This document shows, piece after piece, positions 10,582 to 50,829 of a DNA stretch of 64,000 bases. Position 1 is the first letter of the stretch, and each line of letters begins with the position of its first letter. The notes under the pieces are model-generated. The model was not told the origin of the DNA. It was given only the letters and a program-made list of their open reading frames with translations, and ran no database searches. The DNA is from a virus, in IMG/VR virus record IMGVR_UViG_3300010885_049871, positions 1-64,000 of that record; one strand, given 5' to 3'. Position numbers and translations under genes: made by a program.

Positions 10582-12072
10582 ATGTCTGAAAATATACAAA
10601 GAAACAGTGGCGTAGCACCCAATTACAAATACGACCGCGGCGGAATGAAGGCGGACTTTGGTCCGTTTGTCGGAGTGGTAAAAAATAACATTGACCCAAC
10701 TAGACAAGGACGGTTAGAAGTTCTCATTGAGCAGTTTGATGGCATACGCACTGTGAGTTATGCATCTCCGTTCTACGGATCAACGCCACCGCAGCCCGGT
10801 AAAAAAGGTGATACCAGTGCGGTAGGAGGATACCTGGACGGGAATCCACAGAGCTATGGCATGTGGTTCACACCTCCAGATATTGGAGTAAGTGTGTTGT
10901 GTTTCTTTGCCGGCGGCGATCCAAACTTGGGTTACTACATGGGTTGTATTCCAGTACAAGGCATGACACACATGATCCCAGCCATTGGATCCAGCACAAA
11001 TTTTGATTTACAAAACAGCGATCAAAAAAGCTACTACCTGGGTGCAACTGTATTGCCGGTGACAGAAATTAATCCAAACAATGCAAAGATAGACAGCAAC
11101 CCACAATTCTTTAACCAACCAAAACCTGTACACAGCTTTATAGCAGCTGAAATGTTTCAGCAAGGCACACTGGCTGATCCAATGCGAGGTCCTATCAGTT
11201 CAACCAGTCAGCGAGAAAGTCCCAGTGCTGTGTTTGGTATCAGCACTCCAGGTCGTGCAGTGTACCAAGGTGGGTTTTCCGAAACTGATATACAACAACG
11301 CATTGCAGCCAGAACTATCAATGCCACAGATGTAAATGTGATTGGTCGTCGCGGTGGCCACAGCATTGTGATGGATGATGGCAATATCAACAACAAAGAC
11401 AATCTTGTGCGTGTTCGTACAGCTGGTGGCCACCAGATCACAATGAGTGACGACGGCAACTTTTTATACATCATTCATGCCAATGGACAAACTTGGTTAG
11501 AGATGGGGCAAGAAGGTACACTTGATGTGTATGCTACCAATTCAGTCAATGTTCGCACACAAGGAACAATTAATCTTCATGCAGACAAAGACATCAACAT
11601 GTTTGCTGGTGCTCGGATCAATATGAAAAGCATGGAAGGCACAACTGTGGAATCTGAAAAGAAATTGACATTTTACAGCACAGAAGAAACCGTTCTGTAC
11701 AGCAAAGCTCGTATTGCTGTCAAGGCCGATGGCAGTCTAGCACTGGCCAGCAACAACGGATCATGGAACGCTGGGGGTGCTATGGTATTGCAAGCCGGCG
11801 GCATTGATCTCAATGGCGGTTCTGCAGAAAATGTAGATGCACCCAAGAAGTTGGAAAAATATGTAATGCCCGAAACAGAATTTAACAACGCCACTGGTTG
11901 GCAAATTTCTTCTTCAGGATTAGAAAGCATTGTGACTCGAGCTCCTACACACGAACCATGGCCGTTTCACAATCAAGGTGTCAGTGTAGAAGTGCCAATG
12001 GAGCCGGGCCAACCGACCACTCCGCCAAATACTCCGTCACTGCCTGCAGGATTTACAGGAACAGTATCATAA
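10582..12072 (+). CDS. 5: Baseplate hub spike protein (gp5-like, no lysozyme domain)
   Basis: 496 residues. The N-terminal OB-fold has the usual wording of gp5/VgrG-type spikes: FVGVVKNNIDPTRQGRLEV near residues 32-50, then MWFTPPDIGVSVLCFFAGG and LGYYMGCIP. The C-terminal half (about 255-430) is a run of short beta repeats (GGHSIVMDDG, GGHQITMSDDGNF, TINLHADKDINMFAG, ARINMKSMEG) typical of a trimeric beta-helix needle. T4 gp5 has an inserted lysozyme domain; none is visible here. A Pro-rich tail may bind a tip protein. Confidence 0.85.
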   Translation: MSENIQRNSGVAPNYKYDRGGMKADFGPFVGVVKNNIDPTRQGRLEVLIEQFDGIRTVSYASPFYGSTPPQPGKKGDTSAVGGYLDGNPQSYGMWFTPPDIGVSVLCFFAGGDPNLGYYMGCIPVQGMTHMIPAIGSSTNFDLQNSDQKSYYLGATVLPVTEINPNNAKIDSNPQFFNQPKPVHSFIAAEMFQQGTLADPMRGPISSTSQRESPSAVFGISTPGRAVYQGGFSETDIQQRIAARTINATDVNVIGRRGGHSIVMDDGNINNKDNLVRVRTAGGHQITMSDDGNFLYIIHANGQTWLEMGQEGTLDVYATNSVNVRTQGTINLHADKDINMFAGARINMKSMEGTTVESEKKLTFYSTEETVLYSKARIAVKADGSLALASNNGSWNAGGAMVLQAGGIDLNGGSAENVDAPKKLEKYVMPETEFNNATGWQISSSGLESIVTRAPTHEPWPFHNQGVSVEVPMEPGQPTTPPNTPSLPAGFTGTVS

Positions 12073-13959: not shown

Positions 13960-14334
13960 ATGACAACATTTGTAGGATTCAACACAATAGGACAAACAAA
14001 GAAATTTACATTGGTAGATTTTGAATTGGTCAAACGCGATCTGCTGAATGCTCTTAACATTCAACAAGGACAACTGCCAGGTCGCCCAGGATATGGCACC
14101 TTGATATACAGTTACATATTTGAAAATCAAACACAAGACACTGAACGAGCCATACTGGCAGAAATACAGCGTGTGGCCAGTTTAGATCCAAGAATTTTTA
14201 TTCAGTCAGCTGCTATGTTTCCACAAGAAAACGGCATACTGGTCGAGCTACAAGTGATGATGGTACCAGGACAAACAACTGAATTTTTAAGTGTGTATTT
14301 TGATCAACAAACCGCCAGTGCAAGTTACGCATAG
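13960..14334 (+). CDS. 25: Baseplate wedge protein gp25
   Basis: 124 residues, the normal gp25 length (T4: 132). The sequence carries the gp25/GpW-type wedge features: KRDLLNALNIQQGQLPGRPGYGTLI near residues 26-50, then a helix with DTERAILAEIQRVASLDPRI and a terminal beta strand. gp25 joins the wedge to the sheath and shares the lysozyme-like gp25 fold with type VI secretion TssE. Its neighbour is gp6, as in T4. The start ATG at 13960 follows CGGAG at 13946-13950, with a weak AGTAAATA late-like box between. Confidence 0.92.
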   Translation: MTTFVGFNTIGQTKKFTLVDFELVKRDLLNALNIQQGQLPGRPGYGTLIYSYIFENQTQDTERAILAEIQRVASLDPRIFIQSAAMFPQENGILVELQVMMVPGQTTEFLSVYFDQQTASASYA

Positions 14335-14394: not shown

Positions 14395-17300
14395 ATGGCA
14401 AAAACTACTAGACAAACCGCAGTATTTGGTGTTGAGGATTGGAAAAGAATCTACCAAACTTACCGCGAAGCCGACTTCCAAAGTTATGACTTTGAGACTC
14501 TGCGCAAGAGTTTTGTTGACTATGTACGATTGTACTACCCGGAAACATTCAATGACTACATTGAGTCATCAGAATTTATTGCCATACTGGATGTGATGGC
14601 TTTTATGGGCCAGTCATTGGCCTTCCGCACAGACTTAAACACCCGCGAAAACTATTTAGACACTGCTGAACGCCGTGACAGTGTGGTTCGTCTGGCCAAT
14701 TTGGTAAGTTACACCCCCAAACGCAACACCGAAGCAAACGGATATCTCAAGGTGTTTTCCATACAAACAACAGAAAATGTTGTGGACTACAACGGCATCA
14801 ATCTGGCCAACATCACTGTCAACTGGGCTGACCCTACAAATTTTGATTGGCAAGAACAGTTCAACGCCATTATTAATTCTTCATTGATAAACACTCAGCG
14901 AGTTGGTCGTCCCGGTAATAGAACCATAATTCAAGGCATTCGCACTGATGAATACACAGTTAATTTAGTTCCAGGTTTTCTGCCAGTGCTGCCTTACAGC
15001 GCAGTGGTAGACGGTGTCAACATGCCATTTGAAGCTGTCAGCGCCACTGCCACTGGACTGCCCACCGGTGTTGAATATGTTTACGAACCAAGTCCAGTTC
15101 CCAACGGACAATTTGGTATGTTGTTCCGCAACGACCAACTGGGTTTTGCATCAGCCAATACCGGATTCTTTTTCCTATTCAAACAAGGCGTGTTGCAAAA
15201 TCAAGATTTTAACCTGGCTGAGCGCATTGCAAACCGATCAGTCAATATCAATATTGAAGGTGTCAACAACACCGACCGTTGGTTATATCAATTGGACAAT
15301 GTGGGCAACATTGCTCGTGAATGGGCGTTTGTTGAAAGTGTATACACAGCAGCAGCTGAACAACAGAGCGGCCTACGACCATTGTATTCGGTCACCAGCA
15401 GAGCCAGCGATCAAATCACATTGAACTTTGGTGATGGCGTGTTCTCAGAAATTCCAGTGGGATTTTTCCGTGCATATGTTCGTGCATCAAATGGATTGCA
15501 ATACATCATCAATCCAGAAGAAATGCAAAGTGTAATACTGAGCATTGCTTACATCAGCCGTACTGGCCAGAATGAAACATTGACAATCACCTGTGGTATT
15601 ACAGAGCCAGTGAGTAATGCATTGGCCCGTGAAAGCATTGACGAAATTAAACAACGAGCTCCGGCCCGTTACTACACACAAAATCGCATGGTCAACGGCG
15701 AAGACTACAACAACTTTCCGTTCACTCAGTACAATTCAATTATTAAATCCAAAGCACTAAACCGTGCTTCAATCGGCACTAGCCGATATCTTGATTTGGT
15801 TGACAACACCGGCAAGTACAGCAGCACCAACACATTCGGCAGCGATGGTGCATTGTACAAATCAAATGATTTGCCAACATTTTTATTCAGTTGGTTAACA
15901 ACCAATGACATCAGTGATATATTGACCAATCGGGTTGAACCAATATTGTCAACAGAAGCCATAACACAATTTTACTATGCAAACTATCCAAGACCGTCAT
16001 TGACACCACTGGCAGTAAGTTGGAACCAAAGCACAACACTGGCAAATGAAACCACTGGGTATTTTAAAAATGCAGCCGGCAGTCCTGTTTCCGTAGGAAT
16101 CTATGCCAGTAACAACATGAAATATGTACAAGTTGGCAGCTTAATTAAATTTAGAGCGCCAACCGGCTATTATTTTGATGCCAACAACAGATTGGTATTA
16201 GGGATTCCTACCAGAGCCGACGAAAAATTAACTATATGGGCATCGGCCACAGCAGTATATATTGACGGAACAAACCAAGGTCTTGGCAATTTTACCAATG
16301 GGCTAGGCCCGGTGGTACTGAACAACTATGTGCCTACCAACTCTCAATGTGTTGAAGTAATTCCATTATTCATAACCGATCTAGGCACAACTGTTAGGCA
16401 AAATGCGCTGTCTCAAATTGAATTGTATCGCAATTTTGGTCTTGGCTACAATAACTTAACCAGCACATGGTATGTAATCACTGCCAGTAATCTTGCAGTT
16501 GATGCCGCCTGGAGCGAATCCTATGCTGGTGATACATCAGGTGCAAATCTAGATGCCAGCTGGGTTGTGCAATTTGTCACCAATGGAGAATCATACCAAG
16601 TGACTACTAGAGCATTGAATTACTATTTTGGCAGTGTGCTTGAAACAAGATTCTTTTTTTATGGCGACGAACAAATTTATGACAGCCGCACAGGAACTGT
16701 CATTCGCGACTTTGTAAGAGTATTAAAAACAAACAGTCGCCCTGACTCTAATTTGCCACTTGACAGTGACATCTCAATGCGCATCATTGGGCAGCCTGTG
16801 CAACCTGACGGTTATGTGGATGATTATCAAGTGTTGGTATCTTGGCAAGATAGAGATGCCGACGGCGTGCCAGACAATCCAGATTTCTTTGACGAAATTG
16901 TTGCACCAGCAGTGAACCCCGATACCAAATTGGTGTTCTTTCAACGCATTGTGGATTTTGATAATCTTGAACGCTATGTGCTGGTAGACGCTGGCATAGT
17001 AAACGATCAATACGCAACATTGGATGATATCACTTTAGTAAAATCACAATACATCATTGGCCAGGTATTTTATGCCTATACTGATGGAGTATTTTATAGT
17101 TTGACATTAAACACAACCGGAACAACTTCTTTGGTAGTGGTCAATGATTACCAAAGCCGTGTTGGCCGTCAAGATTTATATTATCAATATCGTCACAACA
17201 GTGCCTTGACCAATCGCATTGACCCGGGCTCAACAAACATTATTGATTTGTATGTGGCCACACAAGATTACTACACTGCTTATAGAAATTACATTGTGGA

Positions 17301-17808
17301 TTCTACCAACACAATACCAGCACCTGTACCGCCCACAATTGATGCACTAAGTACAGAGTATGCAGGATTACAAAATTATAAAATGATTTCTGACAATGTA
17401 ATTGTAAACCCAGTTCGGTTTAAACCATTGTTTGGCGCCAAAGCAGCAGAACAATTACGAGCAACCATCAAAGTTATTCGTGCCAGCAACTCAACTGCAT
17501 CGGTCAGTGAGATCAAAAGCAATGTGGTTGCCAACTTAGATGCATATTTTGCAATTGCAAATTGGGATTTTGGTGATACATTTTACTTTTCAGAACTGTC
17601 AGCCTACCTGCATCAACAGTTGGGTGATATAGTGAGTTCGGTGGTACTGGTTCCGGTCAGCCCACAAAAGAGTTTTGGCGATTTATACGAGATTAGATCT
17701 GCACCTAATGAAATTTTTGTCAATGCAGCCACTGTGGCCGACATTGTGGTGATTGAAGCACTGACCAGTACCAATCTTAGAACTGCCCCAGGCAGCGGAG
17801 TAATTTAA
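14395..17808 (+). CDS. 6: Baseplate wedge protein gp6
   Basis: 1,137 residues. The N-terminus has the gp6/gpJ-type wedge signature: DVMAFMGQSLAFRTDLNTRENYLDTAERRDSVVRLANLV-type text between about residues 65 and 105, then YTPKRNTEANGYLKV. Central segments EIPVGFFRAYVRASNGL and QRAPARYYTQNRMVNGEDYNNFPF are also typical. gp6 forms the inter-wedge ring of the baseplate. It is longer than T4 gp6 (660 aa), as is common in aquatic T4-like phages. The stop overlaps the ATG of the giant tail gene (TAATG). Confidence 0.9.
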   Translation: MAKTTRQTAVFGVEDWKRIYQTYREADFQSYDFETLRKSFVDYVRLYYPETFNDYIESSEFIAILDVMAFMGQSLAFRTDLNTRENYLDTAERRDSVVRLANLVSYTPKRNTEANGYLKVFSIQTTENVVDYNGINLANITVNWADPTNFDWQEQFNAIINSSLINTQRVGRPGNRTIIQGIRTDEYTVNLVPGFLPVLPYSAVVDGVNMPFEAVSATATGLPTGVEYVYEPSPVPNGQFGMLFRNDQLGFASANTGFFFLFKQGVLQNQDFNLAERIANRSVNINIEGVNNTDRWLYQLDNVGNIAREWAFVESVYTAAAEQQSGLRPLYSVTSRASDQITLNFGDGVFSEIPVGFFRAYVRASNGLQYIINPEEMQSVILSIAYISRTGQNETLTITCGITEPVSNALARESIDEIKQRAPARYYTQNRMVNGEDYNNFPFTQYNSIIKSKALNRASIGTSRYLDLVDNTGKYSSTNTFGSDGALYKSNDLPTFLFSWLTTNDISDILTNRVEPILSTEAITQFYYANYPRPSLTPLAVSWNQSTTLANETTGYFKNAAGSPVSVGIYASNNMKYVQVGSLIKFRAPTGYYFDANNRLVLGIPTRADEKLTIWASATAVYIDGTNQGLGNFTNGLGPVVLNNYVPTNSQCVEVIPLFITDLGTTVRQNALSQIELYRNFGLGYNNLTSTWYVITASNLAVDAAWSESYAGDTSGANLDASWVVQFVTNGESYQVTTRALNYYFGSVLETRFFFYGDEQIYDSRTGTVIRDFVRVLKTNSRPDSNLPLDSDISMRIIGQPVQPDGYVDDYQVLVSWQDRDADGVPDNPDFFDEIVAPAVNPDTKLVFFQRIVDFDNLERYVLVDAGIVNDQYATLDDITLVKSQYIIGQVFYAYTDGVFYSLTLNTTGTTSLVVVNDYQSRVGRQDLYYQYRHNSALTNRIDPGSTNIIDLYVATQDYYTAYRNYIVDSTNTIPAPVPPTIDALSTEYAGLQNYKMISDNVIVNPVRFKPLFGAKAAEQLRATIKVIRASNSTASVSEIKSNVVANLDAYFAIANWDFGDTFYFSELSAYLHQQLGDIVSSVVLVPVSPQKSFGDLYEIRSAPNEIFVNAATVADIVVIEALTSTNLRTAPGSGVI

Positions 17809-20800
17809 TGGCAAAAGTGAGAACAGTAGATTTCTTACCTGAAATATTTCAGACATCTACCAACAAGCAATTTTTAGCTGCTACTCTGGACCAATTGGTT
17901 CAAGAACCTCAGTTTAAAAAGACACAAGGTTTTGTTGGTCGTCGTGTTGGGCCCGGGGTCAATTCTGACAATCGTTATGTAGTAGAGCCCACAGCAGCTC
18001 GCACAAACTATCAGTTGGAGCCGGGTGTCATCATGTTGAAACCTGACAGTGACACAGTTGAAGACGCTATTACATATCCTGGCATCAGTGATGCATTAGC
18101 CACGCAAGGTTCGTTTATCAACAACAGCGATAGACTCTACACCAGCGAATACTATACTTGGAATCCTCAAATTGACTTTGATAAGTTTGTAAACTTTAGT
18201 CAATATTACTGGTTGCCCAGCGGCCCAGACAATGTGGATGTTGGTGCCACTGCCGTACCGTTAATGGCCGATTACACAGTTACCCGAGAAAATGGTGTAT
18301 ATACTTTTTCTAATTATTCCACAAATAATCCTGCAATCACCCTGGTGCGCGGCGGCAACTACACATTTAATGTAGCACAAAACCAAAAAGAATCAGTCAA
18401 CTTCCGTGTTACCAGCAGCGGCATATCGGCATATGTAATTGATTATGTTCCAAACCCTGCATTGACCCTGGTGCGCGGCAACACCTATGTGTTTAATTTA
18501 AATCTTGATACAGCATCGCCGTTCTGGATCAAGACTTCACCTACCCAAGGCACTGGCAATCAATACAACACAGGTGTGAGTCGTAACGGTTCACAAACTG
18601 GCAACATCACATTTACTGTGCCACAAGATGCGCCAGATAATTTATATTACGCCAGCGAAACGCAGTTTAACATGCAAGGAACATTTACTATTGTAGACGG
18701 AACTCCGGGCACTGGTCCTGGATTCTGGATTCAGATGACACCGGGTGTTTCGGGAACGCTGCCATGGGCACCAAACATCAGCAGTAGAGATGTGTTGGGA
18801 GTATTCAACAATGGCGAAGACTTGGGAACGGTACAATTCAATGTGCCACTGGCTACTGCACAGAGTTTTTATTACACATTGCCCAGTATTGGGTCAGTTG
18901 ATTTAATAACTACCTTGACGTTTGAACAAATTAACAATCAATTCTTAGTTGAGTTTTTTGCACAGAATCCCACTGGCATTGATGGTATTACCAACTTAAA
19001 TGGTCGCACTGTTGCATTCGTCAACAATGCCGATGCTGACCAAGGCGGCTGGGAAATCACTTCGCAATTTGATCCGTTGCCCAATGTGGGCAATGTTCAA
19101 TCTGGCGCCGGAAGTTTTGACAGCATTTTATTTGCACAAGCAACTCCGCTGACACAAGCACAACGCTACAGCATATGGCAAATTGAGTATATCACTACCA
19201 CAGGCGGCCAGCAGTACATGCAGTTGAACAGGATCTTGCCTGTTGAGAATTTAGAAAAATTCAATGTGTTGTTTGGAACACAATATTCCAGCACTGAATG
19301 GTATAAAAGTGCCGATGGAATATTTGAACAAATTCCGTTGCTGACAGCAATTAAAGATGTGTTGTATTACCAAGACGGAACAGATCCAGAAATATTTGGC
19401 CAAATTCGGTTGATCAATCAAGACCAAACCAGTACAATTTTCATTGAAGATATCATTGGTCAGCCGTCGTACACCAGTCCCAATGGTGTGATATTCACCA
19501 ATGGTCTTAAGGTTCAATTCCGCGGAACTACCTTCCCCGCTGGTTACGAAAATCAAGAATACTATGTTGAAGGAGTGGGTACAGCAATTAAATTGTTGCC
19601 TGTTGTTAATTTTGTAACTCCCGAGACATACACACAAAGTGCCAGCATTCCGTTTGACAGTGTTGGGTATGACATTGGCAACTATGATGCCACAGACAAC
19701 GCTCCGCTGATTCCAGATTATCTCACAATTAATCGTGCAAGCCCGGACATAAATGCGTGGTCGCGATCTAATCGTTGGTTTCATGTTGATGTTATCAACG
19801 CCAGTGCTGCATATAACAATACCACAGCAGTTTTAAACAACAACTTTAGAGCCAAGCGCCCGGTGATAGAGTTTATTGCTGGTACCAAGTTATTTGATTT
19901 TGGCACAGAAGGCAAGCAACCGGTTAATATTGTTGACTTTAATTCAACCGATGCGTTCAGCAACATCAATGGAACAATTGGCTACAGCACTGATGGATAC
20001 ACATTTATCAATGGCAGTCGTGTTATATTTGCAAACGATTCAAATTTACAAGTTCGAAATAAAATATACGAAGTAACATTCATTGCCCCAGACACAGTTA
20101 ATCCTTTGATTAACCAACCTATAATAAATTTAGTTCCTGCTGCTGATTCTGTTGTGCTGGTTAATCAGGCAGTGGTTGCCTTAAATGGATTGACACAGCA
20201 AGGTCTGAGTTACTACTTTGATGGAGTTGACTGGCTATTGGCACAAGAAAAAACTGCCACCAATCAAGCACCGCTGTTTGATGTGTTTGATTCAGCCGGC
20301 GTGAGCTTCAGCAATCAAACAACATATCCTAGTTCTACATTTGTTGGAAGTAAATTATTCAGCTATGCCGTCGGCGATGGTACAGTAGATCCAGTGTTGG
20401 AATTTCCTGTGCGTTACTTGAGTCTTGCCAATATTGGTGATATTGTGTTCGATAATAATTTATACACTGACACATTTAATTATGTGACTGGCACCACTGG
20501 CGTAGTAGGCGATGTCAGCGATGGGTTTGTGTATCAATACAGTGATCGTGTTTTATACGCTCGTAAAATTGGATGGGATGTTGCAGTAACCCCAAGCCAA
20601 ATTCGCCAACAATTCCAATTTACCTACAACGGAACACCTTTACAATTGGACATTGTTGTGCCTGTTAATACCACGGTGCCGGCCGTTATGTTGTATGTGG
20701 CCAATGAATTTGTGCTGCCTCAGGACTACACAGTTACAATAAATGCAAACACAACCATAATTACTCTTGATAAAATTTATGTACCGGGTTCAGTGATTGA

Positions 20801-23800
20801 AGTACAAGTGCTGAGCAATCAAATTAGTAACACTGGTTTTTACGAAGTTCCTATCAACCTGGAGAATAATCCTCTCAATGCCAACAGTGATGTGTTTACG
20901 TTGGGCACTGTGCGAACACATTACGAAAGCATTGCAGAAAATCTCATCAACTTTGTTGGCAAAATTAACGGATCTAACAACACTAGAGACCTAGGCAACA
21001 TTGGTCGATACGGCACAACTATACTGCAACAAAGTTCTCCAATGACCCTGGCTGGGTTTTTTATGAGAGAACCAGAATATAATATTTTTAAATCGCTGGA
21101 GTTCAACGACAGAGAGTATAACAAATTTAAGAATAGAATGTTGGCAGCATCTATTCAAAGCGAATGGGGCGCATTCACTACCAGTCAAATACTTGATTCA
21201 ATCATCACGGATCTGAGTTTAGGTAAAACCAATATAAACAGTTTTTTCTACAGTGACATGATACCACACGGTAGTGTATACGCAGAAGTTGTTCACACTG
21301 TGACGCCAATTACCACAGGTATATTTGACACAGTGCAGACATACACATTTACATCTGCTAACTTTTTAGGATTGTTGGTTTATCTAAATGGTAATTTGTT
21401 AACATTGAACTATGATTACACTGTGGCTACAGATGGACCACGAATTGATGTCAACGTGCCACTGGCGGTGGGCGATCAAGTTACTGTTCGAGAATACGCC
21501 ACAACCACTGGCAGTTTTGTTCCCAATACTCCTACCAAGCTGGGACTGTATGCAGCGTACAAACCACAAATGTATTTGGATACAAACTATGTCAACCCCA
21601 CAATGGTTATCCGTGGGCATGACGGCAGCGTCACTGTTGCATTTGGTGATCTGCGCGATGATATATTGCTAGAATTTGAGCGTAGAATTTTTAACAATTT
21701 AAAAACTCAAGACAATCCAGTGCCATTGGTAGCAGAAGATGTAATACCTGGATATTTCCGTACAACAGATTACACTGCTGCTGAAATTACAACCATACTT
21801 GGCGAAAGTTTCTTGACCTGGTGCGGCCAAAACAAAATTGATTACAAAACTCAACAGTACATCAACACCAATGAGTTCACATACAACTACAGTCAGGCCG
21901 GCGACAAACAATTCAACCAGCCATTGTTGGGTGCATGGCGCGGAATTTATAGAGATTTTTATGATACTCTAAGCCCATCTACTACTCCTTGGGAAATGCT
22001 GGGATTTAGTCAACAGCCTGTGTGGTGGACCAATCGTTATGGCCCCGTCCCTTACACTGGAGATAACTTGGTATTATGGGATGATATCCAAGCTGGTTAT
22101 GTGGCTGATCCTGTTGCGCCATATATTATTCCAAAATACAAACGACCAAACTTGTCAACTTTCTTTATTCCTACTGGATCTGAAGGAGCACTACTGTCTC
22201 CATTGAACAGTGTAGTTGGAGTGTACGATCCCAATTCTTTCCGTAAGAGCTGGGTTGTCGGCGACGGCGGTCCTGCTGAAGCTTCATGGTGGATGAGCAG
22301 CAGTTACCCGTTTGCTGTCATGCGTCTGTTGGCCTTAACACGCCCTGCTGAATTTTTTAGTCTATTTGCTGATCGAGACCTTTACAAATACGATGCTGAC
22401 CTAGAACAATATCTATACAACGGTCGCTACAGACTGGATGCCAATGGTGTTCAAGTGTACGGCGGCCATGTCAACACTGCCAATGGAACTGTTACTCCTG
22501 TCAGCAAAGCCAGCTATATCAACTGGATTGTGGATTACAATCAACAGCTGGGCATCAATTCAACAGATGCGTTAGAACATGCATTGGCCAGCCTTGACGT
22601 TCGTTTATGCTGGAGGACTGCTAGTTTTACAGACAAGCAATACCTCAAAGTGTATACTGAACGATCGAGCCCGGACAGTCAAAACTCCAGTCTGCTGTTG
22701 CCTGACGAAAGTTACAATTTGTTGTTGTACAAAAATGTGCCATTCAGCTCAATTGCATACAGTGCAGTTATTGTGCAGGCAGTTGCCACTGGGTATGCAG
22801 TGCTTGGATACAGCACAGTTGACCCGTACTTTAACATTCTAGCAAGTAGAGCCGCAGGCCAACTACAGACAGTCAGTGCCGGTGGCAGTACTGTGCGTGT
22901 ACCAAAACAATACAGTACAGATATTGTACAAGTGCCATATGGATTTGTGTTTACAAATCAAAGCTCATTGGTTGACTTCTTGTTGAGTTATGGAAAATAC
23001 CTAACTGGTCAAGGATTGATTTTTGGCGAAGACCGTGAAAATGGATATCCACTGGACTGGCAACAAATGGCCAGAGAGTTCTTGTATTGGGCAAATCAAG
23101 GCTGGGGAGTCAATAGTTTAATCAATCTGAATCCAGCTGCAATTCGGTTGGTCGCAGAACGGCCAGGAGCAGTTGTTGACAATGTGATGATGCAGAATAT
23201 AGAAAATATAATGCTGGATCAAAATCGTCAACCTTTTGATGCTAGAAATTTAATTATAGAACGATTAGAAAATAGATTCAGTGTGACCAGCGGTTCTACA
23301 GGTCAAGCAATTTCATATGCCAATTTACGATATACCAGTTATGAAAATCTTGTAATTTTAGACAATGTTAGTATTTTTGCTGATTTAATTTACAATCCGA
23401 CCACCGCTGCACGACAAAATCGTGTCAATGTGGTAGCAATAACTACCACTGAGTGGGATGGTACGTTGAATGCACAAGGGTTTGTGTTGAACCAAAACAA
23501 TGTGCAAGATTGGACTCCAAATCGCAGATATGCCAAGGGCGAAATTGTCAATTATAAAAATACCTATTGGTCTGCTCAAATAATTGTTCAACCCAAGCGA
23601 GAATTTGCTCATGCTGACTGGGTCAAGAGTGATTACACCAAAATACAAAAAGGCCTGTTGCCCAACCTTGCCAACAAAGCAGACCAGCTGGCCAACAGTT
23701 ACAACACACAAACAGCCAACTTAGAGCGTGACAACGATTTATTAAGTTATGGCCTGATTGGATTCCAACCGCGTGAATACATGGTTGCTTTGAATCTTGA

Positions 23801-26800
23801 CGATACCAGTCAAGTTAATTTGTACAAGCAGTTCATTGGTACCAAAGGCACTGTGTTGAGTGCTGAAATATTCACTGGTGCAAATCTTGGCAAAGAAGTT
23901 GCCGATTATCAAATCTATGAAAATTGGGCAGTGCTGCGCGGCACATACGGAGCCAATGCCAACCGCAGCTTCTTTGAATTGCAATTGAATGAAACATTGT
24001 TGCAAAGTGATCCTGCAACAGTACAAATAATTCAAGTGGGCGAGTCAAGCGTAGCAAATCAAACTGTGTTTTTAAGTGATGTATGGCGAGAAAGCTATAA
24101 GTTGCCGTCAACTGATATTCTTCCCACAACAACCACAACTGTTACAGACACAGCATTGCCGTCGGCAGGCTATGTCAACATCAACGACGTTGACATCACA
24201 GTGTTTTCTCTAGACGATCCAAGCGCAATTGCCGCGGATCTTGACAACATTGGTAATGGCACAAGAATCTGGGTAGCCAAAACAAACAGTTTTGATTGGA
24301 ATGTGTATCGCGCTACCCAAACTCCAGGAAGAATCACCCGAGTAAGTGATAATCTCAACGGAACAAGTTTAGTTACATTCACGGCAATACACAATTTAAA
24401 TCGCGGAGATATATTAATTGTTCGATTCTTTAATGAATCTTTCAATGGCGTTTATCGTGTGTTGACAGCACCAACACCGACCACATTGACAGTTGCCTAT
24501 GCATTCACAGGCAATCAAATTGTTGCCACTGGTAACGGGTTGGCATTTTATCTTGATACAATGCGTGTTGCACAAGCTAGTGATGTAGGATCATTGTCCT
24601 ACGCCAATGATCTAGTACCCGGGGCGCTGGCCTGGGTTGACGACAATGGCGCACAATTATGGGAAGTGCTAGAAAAACAAGATGTATTCATTGACAACTA
24701 TTCGTTAGTGCAGAATTTGCCAATAGAAAACACTGCGTATGGCACAAGTGTTGCACAAGCATATGATAATTTTGCCGCATTGGTAGGCGCTCCTAACTAC
24801 TACAATGACACAACTAACACTGTAACAGGTGTAATATATCCGTATGTGCGAGGAGCAGATGCCTTGTATGCTGACGATAATTTATTATACTTGACAGCGC
24901 CCGACACATTGGGCTTTGGCAATGATATTGCATTTGGCAATCAGACATGGGCAGTAGCAGGCGCTAGCCTCAGCGCCGGTGGTGTTGGATATGCTTCAAT
25001 TATTAATAGAAATCCGTCCGACAGTAGATTTACACAGCCGCAATTGTTGGTAGCGCCAGACTATATTACTAGTGCCGGAAGTTTTGGCACCAGTGTTGCC
25101 ATCAGCAACGACGAAAGACTTGTGTACATTGGAGCTCCAGCTGAAAATGCAGTGTACGCTTATGGTCAAGTTGATGTCACTGCCCAGTCAGTAACATACG
25201 TCGCAGACGGAATAAATCAACAATATCAATATTCCAGTGCTATCAAAATTGATTATACAAATCCCAATCAATTGGTGGTGGTTGTTAACAACACAGCACA
25301 ATCAGAAGGAGTAGACTATGTTTTAAGCAATACCGCTGTGCTGTTTGAGAATCCACCTGCTGCTGGGTTGTTGATTGTGATTGCACGCCGTCAATCTGTG
25401 CAACTTGACTATCAAGTGTACTATGGAGTAATGCAAGACTCTACATCAGGGCCCGGATCTGAAGCAGTATTTACTGTGGTTCGTGATCGCGGAGACTATA
25501 CTGTAACGTTGACTGCCCCGGGATTGAATTATATTGTTGGTAATACACTTACTATTGATGCTGCCTTCATTGGTGGCGGCAGTTCGCCTGCAAACGATTT
25601 GGTGATTACAATTGTAACAGTTGTGGCCGGCGGCATTCTTACATTTACAGCAGCAGGTTCTGGAATTGATAACACCGACTCGTTTGACTTGTCTGAATAT
25701 TTGTATACGGCCAATGACATTGATTCGTTCCTACTAGAAGTAAACGGATCTGCACAGCGCCCGTACATTGATTATACATTTGCTGGAACAACTGTTACAT
25801 TTACCCCTGCTGCCGTGCCGGGCCCTGATGCAGTTATTTTTGCGTCTGCCAGAACATATTTTAAGTATATTGACAAAATTGACGGACCAGCCGGTAGTGT
25901 AAATTTTGGTCATAGTGTAGCGTCGGCTACAGATGGCCGCCAGGTAGTGATAGGAGCACCAAACACAGTGGTTGCTTCACTAGAGTCTGGCAGTACATAT
26001 GTGTATGATCGCAGCGTATTACGATACCAAATTAGCCAAGGAGAAACCAGCACGACAACATTTGCACTGCCTACCGGCTGGCAAGCACCAGTCAGCGTGT
26101 TGATTAACAATGCATTCTTGACCAATGCAGAGTTTGTAGTTACCGGTGGGTTTAATGTGGTTGGCAATGATGTTGTGTTGACCAACTCAGTTACACTGGC
26201 AGTGGGCGACATAGTTGAAATTGAAAGCAACATATTCAACACAGTACAACAAATAGTAACCACATCTGATTGGGATTCTTTAAATCAAACAGCAGATAAT
26301 GTACCAATCTACGAAGCACAATTTGGATGGGATGTGGATCTGTGTCCAAACAACTGTAGCATCTACATAGGAGCGCCACAGAACACCAACAATGATTCTG
26401 GTTCTGTGCAGCGCAATGTAAATCAGGCCCGTGTGTACGGTATAATTTCTTCACCAATTTCAAATCCTGTGTTGACAGCAGGCGATACCATTCGTGTCAA
26501 CAACTACCAAATTGCTGTGCCTGCTGCTCCAAACAACACTGTGGCCGGTCTGGCTGCTGCCGTTAACAGCGCCAACAACGGCATTGGTATACCAAATGCC
26601 ACAGCCACAGTAAGTGATGATTTGTATTTTGTTGCAAATGGGATTATAAAAACATTTGATATTGGTGTAACATATTCTCAATATGACAGCTATACCACAG
26701 TAGTGTATCTAGACACAGCATTACAAACAGTAAATGTTGATTACACCTATAACAATACCAAAGGCATTGTTACTTTTATCAACGCACCAGCAGATAAAAC

Positions 26801-29800
26801 TGTAATTCGTGTAGTATCGGGTATACTGACTATTAGCGTCATAAACTCTGCTGCTGCAACATCGGGCGCAAAACTAAATGTGCTGCCGGGACTAACTGGC
26901 TCAGCGTTTGCAGATATTGGTTTTGTAAATTACCCTTACACACAAATAATTACAAGTCCAAATCCAAGTCAGTTTGCTCGATTTGGTTCTAGTCTGACCA
27001 TCGACTCGACTGCATCCACATTGGTGGTAGGTGCGCCAAACGGCAATATGTATAAGCCAGTGACGTTTGACAGCGACACAACTTATTTTGATGATCGTAG
27101 TACTATATTTTCAACTACAATTGTACAAAGTGGCGTAGCATATACTTTTGATTATTTGCCAAGTTCAACAGATTCAGTTAATAATCCTGGTAAGTTTGTG
27201 TTTGGTCAACAATTATACAATGATACAACCAAAGAACTTGACAGTTACGGAACTGGCCTCAGTTACATCTCAGGCAAACTATTAGTGGGCGCACCCGGCA
27301 ATGACTTAGAAGACAGCCAGTTTGCCAACTTTGGTCAAGTTGTTGTATTTGATAACCCCAACAGAACGCCGGCTTGGACAGTAAAACATCTGCAGACTCC
27401 GGTAGTTGATATTGCACTGTTAAATTCTGTCTACATGTATGACAAGTTGGAGTCTCAAGTGACCAGCTACTTGGATTTCTTTGATCCGCTACAAGGTAAG
27501 ATTTTAGGTGTTGCTCGAGAAAATATTGATTATATTGGAGCGGTAGATCCAGCAAACTACAACAATGGTCCAATTCGCAATATTGGTAATCCATGGGCCG
27601 CCGCAAGAGTTGGACAGATTTGGTGGGATACCAACTCGGTTCGTTTCATAGATCCCAACCAGGACGATATTGTTTATGCAAGCCGTCGTTGGGGGCAGAC
27701 ATTCCCAGGTAGCCGTATTGATATCTATCAGTGGGTTGAGAGTGAAGTGCAACCGGCTAATTATACAGGTCCCGGGACTCCACTGAGTTTCTTGAGCTAT
27801 ACTACTCGTGCCGAGTTAAATTCTGAAAATATTTTTGCTACTCGTTATTATTTCTGGGTGAGAAATATTTCTACAGTCAACACTGTGGCAGGAAAAAAAC
27901 TCAGTACAACTGCTCTTGCCAACTATATTCAGTTTCCCCGCGCCAGCGGCATTGCATATCTTGCTCCGTTGAATGCAAGCACCGTGGCAATTTACAACGT
28001 ACTTGATCTAATAAGTGCTCAAGATACAATCTTGCATGTTGAATATGATCGCTTGGTCAATGATGATAATGTTCATCAGGAATATGAATTAATTGCTGCG
28101 GATCGTGCTGACAGTTTCCTAAGTGGTAACTTGTATTTGAAATTGCAAGACAGTTTTTCTGGTATTAACATGATGGGCGCTAGTGTGCCAGATGCTGGAT
28201 TAAGTCCAGCCATGCGGTATGGAGTAGAATTCCGGCCGCGCCAGAGCATGTTTGCAGATCGGTTTGGAGCACTACAAAACTACTTGGGCCGCGCCAATGC
28301 AGTGTTGGCACAATATCCTGTTACTGAAACAAAAAGTTTTACATTGCTCAACAGCAGAGAGCCAGAACCAGCAGACAATTCTGGTGCATGGAACAAAAGA
28401 GTTGCGAACCTTTTAGAATTAAGTTATCAAAACTTAATTCTTGTACCCATTGGATATCGATATCTAGTGGCATCTGACACGGACAACAGTGGCTTTTGGA
28501 CCATATACGAAGTTGTGGCCGGTACCACCCCAGGCTCCAAACAGCTGACATTGATCCGTGTTCAAAACTATGATACTCGTAGATATTGGAATCGCATTGA
28601 TTGGTATCTACCTGGCTATAATAAAACAGTAAATCCAACAACTTCAGTACCAAACTATGCTGGATTGTCAGGAGTGACATTGGCCACTGCACCAGTTGGC
28701 GCCAGTGTTGAAGTGACCAATGCCGCTACCACTGGAAAATTTGAAATTTACCAACGCACTGATCTTGGCTGGGACCGCGTGGGATTGGAAGATGGCACAA
28801 TTGAATTTAGTCGATCATTGTGGGACTATGCCGCTGGCAATTTTGGATTTGATCTAGAAGTGTTTGACGCTCAGTACTTTGATCAAGAACCTGTTATTGA
28901 AACTCGCAAAATTATTCAAGCAATCAACGAACAGTTGTTTATTGACGAGCTGTTGATTGAACGGAACCGTGCATTGATATTGACATTTGAATATGTAATG
29001 AGTGAATTTGCTACGCCTGACTGGTTGATAAAAACCAGTCTGATTGATGTCAACCATAAGATCCGTAATTTATTACCGTACCAATTTTACAATCAAGATA
29101 ATCAAGACTTTGTATTAAATTATATACAAGAAGTTAAACCTTACCATACGCAAATTCGAGAGTTTAACCTGTCCTACAATGGTAACGATGCTTACCCTGG
29201 ACTGATGACTGACTTTGACTTGCCAGCATTCTGGGATTCCGCATTGACTGTGCCACAATTTATCAGTCCAGTGTTATTGCCGTATACTCAGTCAACCGCC
29301 AACAGCAACACCAACTTCAATGCGGATACAGCAGCTGATTCTACATTGTGGGCTAAAAACCCCTGGGATGAATGGTATACAAATTACACATTAAACATAC
29401 AGGCGGTGGTAATTACCAATGGCGGAGTTGGGTATACAACAGCACCATCGATCACAGTGACTGGCGATTGTGTTGAGCAAGCCGAAATGACTGCCATTAT
29501 TAATGGTGCAGGGCAAGTGTCTGGTGTCACAATTGACAACTATGGCAGCGGATACACAACCACTGCTATTATAACTTTTGTTGGTGGAAACGGAACTGGT
29601 GCAACAGCAGCAGTGACAATGGGCAATGATTTGATTCGTCAGATTACCACTAGAATCAAGTACGACAGATATGAATATTCATCTACCATTGTTGAATGGC
29701 AAGCTGGTGTAAACTACGATAATGGCACACAGGTTCGTTATTTAAACCGTGTATGGGAAGCGGCAGCCGACGACAGTACAGGCATTCAAAGCAATACGTT

Positions 29801-32243
29801 TGACCCAGACCAGTGGGTGATTGTCAATCCTGGACTGTTAAGTGGTGTCGACCGTACAATGGGTTTTTATACTCCCACAGCAAACGAGCCCGGGTTGAGT
29901 TTACCATTGTTGATTGACGGAGTTGAATATCCCGGTGTACAAATGTTTGGTGTAGGGTACGATCAATATCCTGGCTTTGATATCAACCCATTTGATACTA
30001 CCCCATTTGACAATTTAACATACGGTCCAGAAGGCAGGCCCACATACGATCAGACCATATTGGATGCCATCTATGCAAGCCCATATAACGATCCTTATTT
30101 GGGAACATTGGCCACCAGTATCAACGCTGATGGCGGCGCCTATATTGATACCTATTCAAGTTATGCTCCGGAAGAATTGGTTCCAGGTAGCGAGTTTGAC
30201 ACACTGGATCTTAGAGTGTATACAACGCCGGGCGCTGATTGGGCCCGCGACGGGCATGGGTTCCGTATTGAAGTTAAAAAATACAATGTTGCAGCAATGC
30301 CAGAGACATTTGCGTTTGCCGGAGTAGATCCAGTTCCTGCCACATTGCTTGTGGAGAATCAAACTACAGGATTGTTGCTACATCCTGTAACAGATTACAC
30401 AGTCAATTGGGCTGCTCAGACCGTTACTGTGATCAATAATGTTGTAGCCGGCGATGTTGTAGTAATTTCATTATTTGAAATAGGTGGCGGCAACCAGATA
30501 CTCAAGCGTCCCTACAACGGCGACGAAGTTGGAAATTCGTTGTTGGTTCCGGTTCAGTATTCATTAATCAACGAGTTTGTTATATTTGTCAACGGCAGTT
30601 TGATCAACAACTATACCTATGTACAAGAGGGAACAAATACTAGACTAGTGTTTGCCAACACTTATACATCCGCTGATTACTTGATGATTGCCGCCATTGG
30701 CCCAACTACAGTCAACGACACTGAAATAAATTACAGTTGGTCGGTTCCGGTTACTCAGTACACTGTAGGTGTAGCTGATCAATACCTGTATACACTGACC
30801 AACAGTATGGAATACACCAATCCAGACAATGTGTACGTCACCATTGATGGCCGACGAGTAAGAACATCTGCAGGCGCACAATACTATGCGGATGGCACTA
30901 GTGAATACCTGTTGCCTCAACGTCTGGGATTTGATCAAAGCATAATTGCTGACAACCAAGTTCGTGTTTATGTGGACAATATTCCTCAAATTCTCAACAT
31001 AGATTTTATTGTTGAACCATATGATCCTAATACTCCAAGAGCAGTGATATTTGATGTTACTCCAACCAATGGTGAGCAAATTTTAATCTGTGTAACCACT
31101 GACGCACAAGCTGTGGTCACTGGCAATCAAATACTGTTTAATCAATACGGAGGCTTTGTTCCTACAGATGGTCAAATTATTGCTGTAACAAGCTGGAATG
31201 ATACTCGTCAACAGGACATATTGACACAGGTATATGTTGGCCCTGGTCCAAGAGTTACCCCAGATGCAACTGAACCATTTGACAGTACAGACTTTGACGT
31301 TGGAACAGTAATCGGCGAACCAGGATCATTTGATTACGGGCCACCGCAGCAGGTGTCGTTGAATAATCTATTCTTGGAACATTTGAACGCAGACCCCGAT
31401 CGGTTATTTGTTACCTTAAATGGTACTTTACTATTCAACAATGTTGACTATACACTTGTGAATGATGAAATTGTGTTGCCCGGCGGGTATATTTTGTCTC
31501 CAACTGATGTAGTAATGATCACACAGTTTACTAGCAGCATTGCTCCACTAGCAATGGCATTCCGCATATTCCAAGACATGCGTGGCGTGCAAGCTACCTA
31601 CCGAATTACCGCAGCAACTACAACATATTTAACACAAGCATTGAGTGCTGTTGCTGATACAATTTATGTGTACAATGCAGCCGCGCTGGATGAACCAAAT
31701 CTAGCCAACAATATCTGGGGGCTGTTGACCATCAACGGCGAAAGAATTATGTACCGTAATCGTGATCTTACTACTAATACAATCAGTGGATTACGACGCG
31801 GCACAGCCGGAACTGGTGCAGCTGATCATGCTATCAACGCAGATGTTTACAACATTGGCCGTGGCAATTTATTACAACCAGAATATCAAAATTATATTGT
31901 TTCTAATATAACTTACCCATTGTTGTCGGGAGTAAACATTGGTGATGGAGTTACCACATCATTTGTTGCTGCACTGATAGATGTGTCAGGTGCTGACAGC
32001 ACTGTGGACAATGAAGCAGTTGAAGTTTATATAGGCGGAACATTGCAATCGGGCGGATACACAATTACCAATGAAAACCCTGTCACTGTGTTGTTTGATA
32101 CAGCACCAGCAGATGGATCAGAAGTTACAATATTAGTACGACGCGGAGTAACATGGTATGCGCCCGGTATTGATACCCCAAGCGATGGTGTGGCATTGCA
32201 AGATACCAACACTGTGGCCGCAAGGTTTTTACGGGGCGAATAA
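17808..32243 (+). CDS. Giant 4,811-residue tail/baseplate protein with FG-GAP propeller repeats
   Basis: A single uninterrupted frame of 14.4 kb. The N-terminus (VRTVDFLPEIFQTSTNKQFL) and C-terminus (TPSDGVALQDTNTVAARFLRGE) resemble the very large tail proteins placed after gp6 in aquatic T4-like phages (often called VrlC-like). Visible parts: two cupredoxin-like beta segments (about 175-300); a conserved middle with GGPAEASWWMSSSYPFAVMRL (near 1490); seven FG-GAP-type repeats (about 2310, 2368, 2425, 2699, 2838, 3059, 3146) each ending in GAP or GAS; and at least a dozen ~45-residue beta modules of the form VxVNG...DYT...P..GD.V.I (about 1000-1200, 2480-2970, 4150-4790). Such a protein likely forms a peripheral baseplate or fibre-attachment structure. 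Exact role is unknown. Confidence 0.85.
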   Translation: MAKVRTVDFLPEIFQTSTNKQFLAATLDQLVQEPQFKKTQGFVGRRVGPGVNSDNRYVVEPTAARTNYQLEPGVIMLKPDSDTVEDAITYPGISDALATQGSFINNSDRLYTSEYYTWNPQIDFDKFVNFSQYYWLPSGPDNVDVGATAVPLMADYTVTRENGVYTFSNYSTNNPAITLVRGGNYTFNVAQNQKESVNFRVTSSGISAYVIDYVPNPALTLVRGNTYVFNLNLDTASPFWIKTSPTQGTGNQYNTGVSRNGSQTGNITFTVPQDAPDNLYYASETQFNMQGTFTIVDGTPGTGPGFWIQMTPGVSGTLPWAPNISSRDVLGVFNNGEDLGTVQFNVPLATAQSFYYTLPSIGSVDLITTLTFEQINNQFLVEFFAQNPTGIDGITNLNGRTVAFVNNADADQGGWEITSQFDPLPNVGNVQSGAGSFDSILFAQATPLTQAQRYSIWQIEYITTTGGQQYMQLNRILPVENLEKFNVLFGTQYSSTEWYKSADGIFEQIPLLTAIKDVLYYQDGTDPEIFGQIRLINQDQTSTIFIEDIIGQPSYTSPNGVIFTNGLKVQFRGTTFPAGYENQEYYVEGVGTAIKLLPVVNFVTPETYTQSASIPFDSVGYDIGNYDATDNAPLIPDYLTINRASPDINAWSRSNRWFHVDVINASAAYNNTTAVLNNNFRAKRPVIEFIAGTKLFDFGTEGKQPVNIVDFNSTDAFSNINGTIGYSTDGYTFINGSRVIFANDSNLQVRNKIYEVTFIAPDTVNPLINQPIINLVPAADSVVLVNQAVVALNGLTQQGLSYYFDGVDWLLAQEKTATNQAPLFDVFDSAGVSFSNQTTYPSSTFVGSKLFSYAVGDGTVDPVLEFPVRYLSLANIGDIVFDNNLYTDTFNYVTGTTGVVGDVSDGFVYQYSDRVLYARKIGWDVAVTPSQIRQQFQFTYNGTPLQLDIVVPVNTTVPAVMLYVANEFVLPQDYTVTINANTTIITLDKIYVPGSVIEVQVLSNQISNTGFYEVPINLENNPLNANSDVFTLGTVRTHYESIAENLINFVGKINGSNNTRDLGNIGRYGTTILQQSSPMTLAGFFMREPEYNIFKSLEFNDREYNKFKNRMLAASIQSEWGAFTTSQILDSIITDLSLGKTNINSFFYSDMIPHGSVYAEVVHTVTPITTGIFDTVQTYTFTSANFLGLLVYLNGNLLTLNYDYTVATDGPRIDVNVPLAVGDQVTVREYATTTGSFVPNTPTKLGLYAAYKPQMYLDTNYVNPTMVIRGHDGSVTVAFGDLRDDILLEFERRIFNNLKTQDNPVPLVAEDVIPGYFRTTDYTAAEITTILGESFLTWCGQNKIDYKTQQYINTNEFTYNYSQAGDKQFNQPLLGAWRGIYRDFYDTLSPSTTPWEMLGFSQQPVWWTNRYGPVPYTGDNLVLWDDIQAGYVADPVAPYIIPKYKRPNLSTFFIPTGSEGALLSPLNSVVGVYDPNSFRKSWVVGDGGPAEASWWMSSSYPFAVMRLLALTRPAEFFSLFADRDLYKYDADLEQYLYNGRYRLDANGVQVYGGHVNTANGTVTPVSKASYINWIVDYNQQLGINSTDALEHALASLDVRLCWRTASFTDKQYLKVYTERSSPDSQNSSLLLPDESYNLLLYKNVPFSSIAYSAVIVQAVATGYAVLGYSTVDPYFNILASRAAGQLQTVSAGGSTVRVPKQYSTDIVQVPYGFVFTNQSSLVDFLLSYGKYLTGQGLIFGEDRENGYPLDWQQMAREFLYWANQGWGVNSLINLNPAAIRLVAERPGAVVDNVMMQNIENIMLDQNRQPFDARNLIIERLENRFSVTSGSTGQAISYANLRYTSYENLVILDNVSIFADLIYNPTTAARQNRVNVVAITTTEWDGTLNAQGFVLNQNNVQDWTPNRRYAKGEIVNYKNTYWSAQIIVQPKREFAHADWVKSDYTKIQKGLLPNLANKADQLANSYNTQTANLERDNDLLSYGLIGFQPREYMVALNLDDTSQVNLYKQFIGTKGTVLSAEIFTGANLGKEVADYQIYENWAVLRGTYGANANRSFFELQLNETLLQSDPATVQIIQVGESSVANQTVFLSDVWRESYKLPSTDILPTTTTTVTDTALPSAGYVNINDVDITVFSLDDPSAIAADLDNIGNGTRIWVAKTNSFDWNVYRATQTPGRITRVSDNLNGTSLVTFTAIHNLNRGDILIVRFFNESFNGVYRVLTAPTPTTLTVAYAFTGNQIVATGNGLAFYLDTMRVAQASDVGSLSYANDLVPGALAWVDDNGAQLWEVLEKQDVFIDNYSLVQNLPIENTAYGTSVAQAYDNFAALVGAPNYYNDTTNTVTGVIYPYVRGADALYADDNLLYLTAPDTLGFGNDIAFGNQTWAVAGASLSAGGVGYASIINRNPSDSRFTQPQLLVAPDYITSAGSFGTSVAISNDERLVYIGAPAENAVYAYGQVDVTAQSVTYVADGINQQYQYSSAIKIDYTNPNQLVVVVNNTAQSEGVDYVLSNTAVLFENPPAAGLLIVIARRQSVQLDYQVYYGVMQDSTSGPGSEAVFTVVRDRGDYTVTLTAPGLNYIVGNTLTIDAAFIGGGSSPANDLVITIVTVVAGGILTFTAAGSGIDNTDSFDLSEYLYTANDIDSFLLEVNGSAQRPYIDYTFAGTTVTFTPAAVPGPDAVIFASARTYFKYIDKIDGPAGSVNFGHSVASATDGRQVVIGAPNTVVASLESGSTYVYDRSVLRYQISQGETSTTTFALPTGWQAPVSVLINNAFLTNAEFVVTGGFNVVGNDVVLTNSVTLAVGDIVEIESNIFNTVQQIVTTSDWDSLNQTADNVPIYEAQFGWDVDLCPNNCSIYIGAPQNTNNDSGSVQRNVNQARVYGIISSPISNPVLTAGDTIRVNNYQIAVPAAPNNTVAGLAAAVNSANNGIGIPNATATVSDDLYFVANGIIKTFDIGVTYSQYDSYTTVVYLDTALQTVNVDYTYNNTKGIVTFINAPADKTVIRVVSGILTISVINSAAATSGAKLNVLPGLTGSAFADIGFVNYPYTQIITSPNPSQFARFGSSLTIDSTASTLVVGAPNGNMYKPVTFDSDTTYFDDRSTIFSTTIVQSGVAYTFDYLPSSTDSVNNPGKFVFGQQLYNDTTKELDSYGTGLSYISGKLLVGAPGNDLEDSQFANFGQVVVFDNPNRTPAWTVKHLQTPVVDIALLNSVYMYDKLESQVTSYLDFFDPLQGKILGVARENIDYIGAVDPANYNNGPIRNIGNPWAAARVGQIWWDTNSVRFIDPNQDDIVYASRRWGQTFPGSRIDIYQWVESEVQPANYTGPGTPLSFLSYTTRAELNSENIFATRYYFWVRNISTVNTVAGKKLSTTALANYIQFPRASGIAYLAPLNASTVAIYNVLDLISAQDTILHVEYDRLVNDDNVHQEYELIAADRADSFLSGNLYLKLQDSFSGINMMGASVPDAGLSPAMRYGVEFRPRQSMFADRFGALQNYLGRANAVLAQYPVTETKSFTLLNSREPEPADNSGAWNKRVANLLELSYQNLILVPIGYRYLVASDTDNSGFWTIYEVVAGTTPGSKQLTLIRVQNYDTRRYWNRIDWYLPGYNKTVNPTTSVPNYAGLSGVTLATAPVGASVEVTNAATTGKFEIYQRTDLGWDRVGLEDGTIEFSRSLWDYAAGNFGFDLEVFDAQYFDQEPVIETRKIIQAINEQLFIDELLIERNRALILTFEYVMSEFATPDWLIKTSLIDVNHKIRNLLPYQFYNQDNQDFVLNYIQEVKPYHTQIREFNLSYNGNDAYPGLMTDFDLPAFWDSALTVPQFISPVLLPYTQSTANSNTNFNADTAADSTLWAKNPWDEWYTNYTLNIQAVVITNGGVGYTTAPSITVTGDCVEQAEMTAIINGAGQVSGVTIDNYGSGYTTTAIITFVGGNGTGATAAVTMGNDLIRQITTRIKYDRYEYSSTIVEWQAGVNYDNGTQVRYLNRVWEAAADDSTGIQSNTFDPDQWVIVNPGLLSGVDRTMGFYTPTANEPGLSLPLLIDGVEYPGVQMFGVGYDQYPGFDINPFDTTPFDNLTYGPEGRPTYDQTILDAIYASPYNDPYLGTLATSINADGGAYIDTYSSYAPEELVPGSEFDTLDLRVYTTPGADWARDGHGFRIEVKKYNVAAMPETFAFAGVDPVPATLLVENQTTGLLLHPVTDYTVNWAAQTVTVINNVVAGDVVVISLFEIGGGNQILKRPYNGDEVGNSLLVPVQYSLINEFVIFVNGSLINNYTYVQEGTNTRLVFANTYTSADYLMIAAIGPTTVNDTEINYSWSVPVTQYTVGVADQYLYTLTNSMEYTNPDNVYVTIDGRRVRTSAGAQYYADGTSEYLLPQRLGFDQSIIADNQVRVYVDNIPQILNIDFIVEPYDPNTPRAVIFDVTPTNGEQILICVTTDAQAVVTGNQILFNQYGGFVPTDGQIIAVTSWNDTRQQDILTQVYVGPGPRVTPDATEPFDSTDFDVGTVIGEPGSFDYGPPQQVSLNNLFLEHLNADPDRLFVTLNGTLLFNNVDYTLVNDEIVLPGGYILSPTDVVMITQFTSSIAPLAMAFRIFQDMRGVQATYRITAATTTYLTQALSAVADTIYVYNAAALDEPNLANNIWGLLTINGERIMYRNRDLTTNTISGLRRGTAGTGAADHAINADVYNIGRGNLLQPEYQNYIVSNITYPLLSGVNIGDGVTTSFVAALIDVSGADSTVDNEAVEVYIGGTLQSGGYTITNENPVTVLFDTAPADGSEVTILVRRGVTWYAPGIDTPSDGVALQDTNTVAARFLRGE

Positions 32244-50731: not shown

Positions 50732-50829
50732 ACTGGATTAAAAATTTAATTGGCCGTATCCGCTTAGAAATACGCTATCGTAAAAAACTCAAAGAACTTC
50801 GCAAACGAGATCCGTTTATCTACAAATGA
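50728..50829 (+). CDS. 33-residue basic peptide, coupled on both sides
   Basis: ATG at 50728 overlaps the previous stop (ATGA) and its own TGA (50827-50829) overlaps the next ATG at 50826. The product is a strongly basic amphipathic helix containing IRYRKKLKELRKRDPFIYK. The precise fit between two genes, with a 4-nt overlap at each end, argues that it is translated. The ending KRDPFIY resembles small peptides I recall from T4-like aquatic phages. It has no Cys and no obvious leader/core layout for a modified peptide. Confidence 0.65.
   Translation: MNWIKNLIGRIRLEIRYRKKLKELRKRDPFIYK

Follow-up and report, generated by a model that had tools for sequence, protein, structure and literature searches.

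Can the tail of a phage carry a closed propeller of the type found in integrin alpha chains, and what would such a domain do there? This question is raised by the DNA analysed here, a stretch of 64,000 nucleotides (the window) that is part of an 89.5-kb virus record. Positions 17808-32243 of its plus strand form a single uninterrupted frame of 4,811 codons, and the encoded protein of 4,811 aa, P0001, matches phrog_10938, a family of virion structural proteins, with a profile E value of 7.9e-297. The original prediction had claimed seven FGxSV...GAP segments in this protein, long insertions between several of them and a heavily decorated, integrin-alpha-like propeller of seven blades.

The giant gene and its neighbourhood

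The gene adjoins genes of the baseplate, and its product consists of conserved and variable parts:

10582-12072, plus strand: baseplate hub / tail lysozyme-type protein (phrog_13211, E=1.3e-32; weak Phage_base_V)
13960-14334, plus strand: baseplate wedge subunit, gp25-like (phrog_43, E=2.6e-9)
14395-17808, plus strand: baseplate wedge protein, gp6-like, adjoining the P0001 gene upstream (phrog_10646, E=9.5e-278; phrog_219, E=4.6e-22)
17808-32243, plus strand: giant structural-protein gene, P0001
17808-24395, plus strand: N-terminal part of P0001, aa 1-2196, common to RaK2, PA5oct, Atu_ph07, Phosso, SCTP-2 and Vibrio 2.275.O at 20-38% identity, aa ~180-540 excepted
27375-29237, plus strand: conserved C-flank, aa 3190-3810, homologous again in cultured jumbo phages
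29238-32240, plus strand: more variable C-terminal part, aa 3811-4811, with extra beta modules and a CBM_5_12-like match below threshold

The homologues of PA5oct, Atu_ph07, Phosso, RaK2, SCTP-2 and Vibrio 2.275.O have 3,326-4,555 aa. Wedge genes come just before the giant gene in the cultured phages with annotated neighbours, and this gene order is common to the window, PA5oct, Atu_ph07 and Phosso. The PA5oct homologue, gp355, is encoded directly 3' of two baseplate wedge genes and its record holds an ESI-MS/MS note; gp355 is the one member for which virion membership of the giant family is indicated in this way. The phrog_10938 giant proteins of RaK2, 121Q-type phages, PA5oct and Atu_ph07 resemble P0001 in their homologous N- and C-terminal parts and in their position after the wedge genes, but those of cultured phages carry 217-1549 aa of other sequence, with no FG-GAP repeats, at the site of the predicted P0001 propeller. 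PDB sequence searches with the N-flank and C-flank profiles gave no matches, so no T4 baseplate homologue can be named by sequence.

A relative is encoded by 414 stretches in one IMG/VR scan, on contigs of up to 347 kb. Since near relatives sit on contigs of up to 340-347 kb, the source of the window is probably a jumbo phage of about this size. In five relatives with short ORFs (L028, L034, L070, L075 and L115), a split gene was considered and rejected: in most cases there is an in-frame stop and the match continues in the same frame, with a frame change as well in L115. These short ORFs are likely assembly or sequencing errors.

Elsewhere in the window, about seven proteins of the radical SAM / SPASM type, some of them with matches below the Pfam cut-off, are encoded in a run at 40498-54785:

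40498-41361: radical SAM / SPASM-type ORF
42046-43458: radical SAM / SPASM-type ORF
44541-45890: radical SAM / SPASM-type ORF
45868-47148: radical SAM / SPASM-type ORF
47145-48359: radical SAM / SPASM-type ORF
48340-49638: radical SAM / SPASM-type ORF
53646-54785, minus strand: radical SAM / SPASM-type ORF

The run is accompanied by a carbamoyltransferase (50826-52340) and a PylC-like ORF, and it looks like a biosynthetic cluster, possibly for peptide or sugar modification. The window also encodes a D-alanyl-D-alanine carboxypeptidase at 52897-53673 (Peptidase_S11, E=1.1e-40). As a separate observation, the giant proteins of one set of relatives (L173, L174, L185, L201, L160 and L162) each contain the tetrapeptide DGS[ST] 10-17 times, where composition expects 0.3-0.5; the coding DNA of these giant ORFs is not one repeated word.

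Seven FG-GAP motifs and the predicted fold

The pattern [FY]G.[SDAG][VILA]...[IVLA]GA[PS] matched P0001 exactly seven times, at aa 2311, 2370, 2426, 2700, 2839, 3059 and 3147, while 2,000 residue shuffles of the protein gave a mean of 0.009 matches and a maximum of 1. All of the predicted segments were recovered within 5 bases of where they had been placed, and there are only seven:

24693-27407, plus strand: predicted seven-bladed FG-GAP / integrin-alpha-type propeller with decorations, aa 2296-3200 (motifs, alignment, AlphaFold2, fold search)
24738-24794, plus strand: blade 1 motif, YGTSVAQAYDNFAALVGAP (pattern match and alignment)
24915-24968, plus strand: blade 2 motif, FGNDIAFGNQTWAVAGAS (pattern match and alignment)
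25083-25139, plus strand: blade 3 motif, FGTSVAISNDERLVYIGAP (pattern match and alignment)
25905-25961, plus strand: blade 4 motif, FGHSVASATDGRQVVIGAP (core of the Pfam FG-GAP_2 match)
26322-26378, plus strand: blade 5 motif, FGWDVDLCPNNCSIYIGAP (pattern match and alignment)
26982-27038, plus strand: blade 6 motif, FGSSLTIDSTASTLVVGAP (pattern match and alignment)
27246-27296, plus strand: blade 7 motif, YGTGLSYISGKLLVGAP (pattern match and alignment)

The FG-GAP profile search proposed together with the prediction was positive. Pfam FG-GAP_2 (PF14312; gathering cut-off, 23 bits) scored 41.5 bits against the whole protein (E=1.5e-10) and 58.2 bits against the excised region, and was found at E<=0.01 in all 27 members of our first alignment. 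Each of the seven FG/GAP pairs is near-invariant, being present in nearly all of 64 aligned sequences; motifs 1 (YG..LVGAP), 2 (FG..VAGAS) and 7 (YG..LVGAP) are slightly off consensus. As claimed, long insertions separate several motifs: in the 64-sequence alignment the distances are long and variable, with 274 aa between motifs 3 and 4, 139 between 4 and 5 and 220 between 5 and 6. The Ca2+-binding loops expected in the blades did not appear, since a pattern search for DxDxDG loops (D.[DN].[DN]G) found none anywhere in the 4,811 aa of P0001.

Structure prediction of the region, also suggested beforehand, gave a confident model. AlphaFold2 prediction of aa 2270-3240 from the 64-sequence alignment reached a pLDDT of 86.7 and a pTM of 0.86, with 28 strands assignable as seven blades of four strands. 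In the predicted layout, the FG motif is followed by strand 1, strand 2 ending in GAP, strand 3 of the G-x-V-Y-V-Y type and strand 4. The Foldseek matches of this model in the PDB were mainly integrin alpha chains at E ~1e-8, with low TM-scores (0.1-0.35) because the decorations break the alignment. For this reason we also modelled L040, the relative with the shortest insertions (768 aa modelled; pLDDT 89.6, pTM 0.91). Nearly all of its best 50 PDB matches were integrin alpha headpieces, with alignments over the full length (~804 columns); the best of the propeller chains of 440-450 residues had TM-scores of 0.60-0.63 by target, values that come from this lean relative and not from the window's own model. 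A PDB sequence search with the propeller profile reached integrins only marginally (E=0.014), and therefore the fold claim rests on structure prediction; a Pfam search of P0001 gave no integrin domain.

On these models, aa 2296-3200 very probably form a closed seven-bladed beta-propeller of the FG-GAP/integrin-alpha type without calcium loops, ring closure being indicated by the fold matches and the strand counts. AlphaFold2 and Foldseek thus agree with the decorated propeller that had been proposed. The contrary outcome named at the same time, in which self-contained beta sandwiches with FG-GAP-like loops follow one another in a row and form no closed ring, is very improbable. The decorations and other parts of P0001 are indeed such beta modules, and the low integrin TM-scores of the window model would suit such a row. 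However, it is disfavoured by the seven repeats across the 64 relatives checked, by the pTM of both models and by the full-length integrin matches of L040. The window model also matched a seven-repeat protein of Atu_ph07, gp320 (A0A2L0UZX4), with a TM-score of 0.65 by target.

Integrin alpha propellers (PDB 4wk0, 9ind, 9dia and 3vi3) have seven FG-GAP repeats and the fold predicted for P0001, with 8-12% identity in the fold alignments. They differ in having DxDxDG loops in their later blades, whereas P0001 has none and carries large beta modules in blades 3-5. Thigh, calf and transmembrane parts follow the propeller in integrin alpha, but jumbo-phage structural sequence stands there in P0001.

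A conserved hairpin precedes the propeller, and three blades carry large decorations:

24630-24680, plus strand: WVDDNG..LWEVLEK hairpin, aa 2275-2291, directly before the propeller; near-invariant in 64 relatives
25173-25856, plus strand: blade 3 decoration between strands 3 and 4, aa ~2456-2683; two 'VNGxxQxPxxDY' beta modules and one Gly-rich beta module
26031-26210, plus strand: blade 4 decoration between strands 3 and 4, aa ~2742-2801; one beta module
26445-26936, plus strand: blade 5 decoration between strands 3 and 4, aa ~2880-3043; a module with a second module nested inside

Related W[VI]...W.[VI] motifs stand at the site of the hairpin in PA5oct and Phosso. The blade 3 decoration contains a phrog_10330 match (aa 2462-2549), and the 'VNGxxQxPxxDY...' type, to which the inserted modules belong, also matches P0001 around aa 1161, 4359, 4528 and 4734. 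The outer module of the blade 5 decoration is Flagellin_IN-like in two relatives. Its nested module (M4) is present in 45 of the 64 relatives and absent from the rest, which suggests that such modules are gained or lost as units. Blade 6 has a smaller extra module between strands 2 and 3 in the AlphaFold2 model. By integrin convention the 3-4 loops make up the lower face of the propeller; since the three large decorations all lie between strands 3 and 4, they would share one face.

Insertion site, history and precedents

The conserved flanks of P0001 stop at aa ~2053-2196 and restart at ~3190. The stretch between the conserved N- and C-terminal parts is of very different length among the homologues: ~1,140 aa in P0001, 217 in RaK2, 278 in Vibrio 2.275.O, 343 in PA5oct, 527 in SCTP-2, 1,536 in Phosso and 1,549 in Atu_ph07. 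In these six cultured homologues the sequence at the site is unrelated and, by the blade profile, has no FG-GAP blades. The idea that the ~1,500-aa inserts of Phosso and Atu_ph07 contain a divergent propeller was rejected, as the blade profile finds none there, although both genomes encode FG-GAP proteins elsewhere. What these two phages carry at the site (L004 aa 1693-3200 and L006 aa 1658-3186, respectively) is a repeated, Gly-rich beta sequence of another kind, ~1,500 aa long.

A wider scan added 80 more homologues of the giant protein, and the blade profile found blades at the propeller site only and nowhere else in these proteins. We built a tree from the conserved N-terminal part, leaving the propeller site out. 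All 51 propeller carriers fall into one clade of 56 environmental rows (SH-aLRT 100), which also holds two non-carriers and three weak calls. Outside it stand the six cultured phages, all without the propeller at this site, and other non-carriers. Parsimony requires three changes on this tree, which was rooted on RaK2, so that loss outside the clade is formally possible. The simplest account is a single gain of the propeller by the ancestor of an uncultured jumbo myophage clade, with few later losses or cases in which it escaped detection.

Four different propeller segments, searched with tblastn in 50,697 phage records, gave no propeller match, and hence cultured phages with a propeller at this site are not known; a query including the N-flank matched mainly through that flank. 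The propeller segment found no relative in 84,980 bacterial and archaeal genomes, which therefore give no hint of a host or prophage. No other 900-aa stretch of P0001 is as divergent as the propeller, which has 35-56% identity per 100 aa compared with mostly 60-70% in the flanks.

The original prediction knew of no phage tail protein described as having a complete FG-GAP propeller, but precedents exist as separate proteins. The 394-aa gp320 of Atu_ph07, in which seven FG-GAP-like repeats can be read, is encoded beside the tail-sheath genes, and gp213 of Sinorhizobium phage AP-J-162 (375 aa) was reported to be similar to human integrin 3VI3 (PMC11242549). Phosso encodes free-standing FG-GAP-type 'hemagglutinin' propellers in separate small genes (CDS 129/130), and has in all two giant FG-GAP proteins of ~3,160 and ~3,690 aa and two of ~395 aa. 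These 'hemagglutinin' proteins of rhizobial jumbo phages of the RaK2-like group (gp320, gp213 and CDS 129/130) share FG-GAP-type repeats with P0001, but they are undecorated and encoded by separate genes, whereas the P0001 propeller is decorated and lies inside a giant baseplate protein. The two giant proteins of Phosso, a cultured Sinorhizobium phage, are adjacent hypothetical proteins (PV764938.1, 48338-68978; L131, 3339-23979) with dozens of FG-GAP_2 matches, far beyond one propeller. In UniProt there are entries under the name 'FG-GAP repeat [uncultured Caudovirales phage]', and the matches in viral structure predictions included FG-GAP proteins from giant viruses and from uncultured phages.

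The receptor-binding or tail propellers of other phages, those of phi11 Gp45 and of the T7 nozzle, belong to different families, not FG-GAP, and these proteins are unrelated to P0001. The reports on them (PMC4901313 and PMC6702177) establish beta-propellers in phage tail tips. Among open-licence papers, we found none on an FG-GAP propeller within a giant baseplate protein and nothing relevant on FG-GAP together with a phage virion or baseplate. A phage propeller of this type is itself already known; what is new here is its insertion into a giant baseplate protein, its decorations and its clade-wide distribution.

Possible role of the propeller

We propose a single insertion of the propeller at a length-variable site of the giant protein, which adjoins the baseplate wedge genes in RaK2/PA5oct-type phages. 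Because its ends lie close together, it could sit as a knob and leave the conserved halves undisturbed. The modules on blades 3, 4 and 5 would extend from one shared face, and before tail contraction the propeller with these swappable modules may touch or hold on to a ligand on the host surface, or a partner fibre. The propeller is most likely, with somewhat better than even probability, a platform for attachment, exposed on the rim of the baseplate, and we consider the explanation as a whole, from insertion to attachment, moderately probable. We infer its place in the virion, its exposure and its ligand binding, the receptor-binding role being read from three things, namely the fold, the place of the gene and the divergence. 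The integrin-type fold is known as a ligand- and partner-binding platform, which we count in favour of attachment. Faster divergence is as expected for an exposed part, but a relaxed spacer would show it as well. It also counts against attachment that a search for ligand-binding motifs of known kinds found none and that calcium loops are absent.

The main alternative, which we consider rather unlikely, is that the propeller is purely architectural and joins adjacent wedges or tail fibres together with no host contact, much as integrin propellers dock a beta subunit. The place of the giant gene among baseplate wedge genes and the strict conservation of all seven motifs are consistent with it, and the many phages of the family without a propeller at this site indicate that other local architectures exist. 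However, the propeller is the least conserved long stretch of P0001, and its decorations differ among close relatives, as with the module found in 45 of 64, which is less expected of a buried contact. Many enzymes have propeller folds and depolymerases are frequent on phage baseplates, but a catalytic propeller, such as a glycan-cleaving depolymerase, is hardly credible here because Pfam and NCBIfam give only the FG-GAP repeat and no enzyme family, and nearly all top fold matches of the lean L040 model are integrins.

If the propeller is an attachment platform, one may go further and suggest, quite tentatively, that this clade built an integrin-like, calcium-independent adhesion head into a baseplate protein and changed its specificity through small beta modules gained or lost on one face. 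An adhesion fold best known from animals would then be a building block of the host-contact machinery in widespread uncultured jumbo phages. The propeller (aa 2296-3200, or the shorter L040 version) is a concrete domain for expression and testing, and it provides a sequence marker for the carrier clade. Its site, which holds different inserts according to phage lineage, is a candidate for studying the exchange of baseplate attachment modules.
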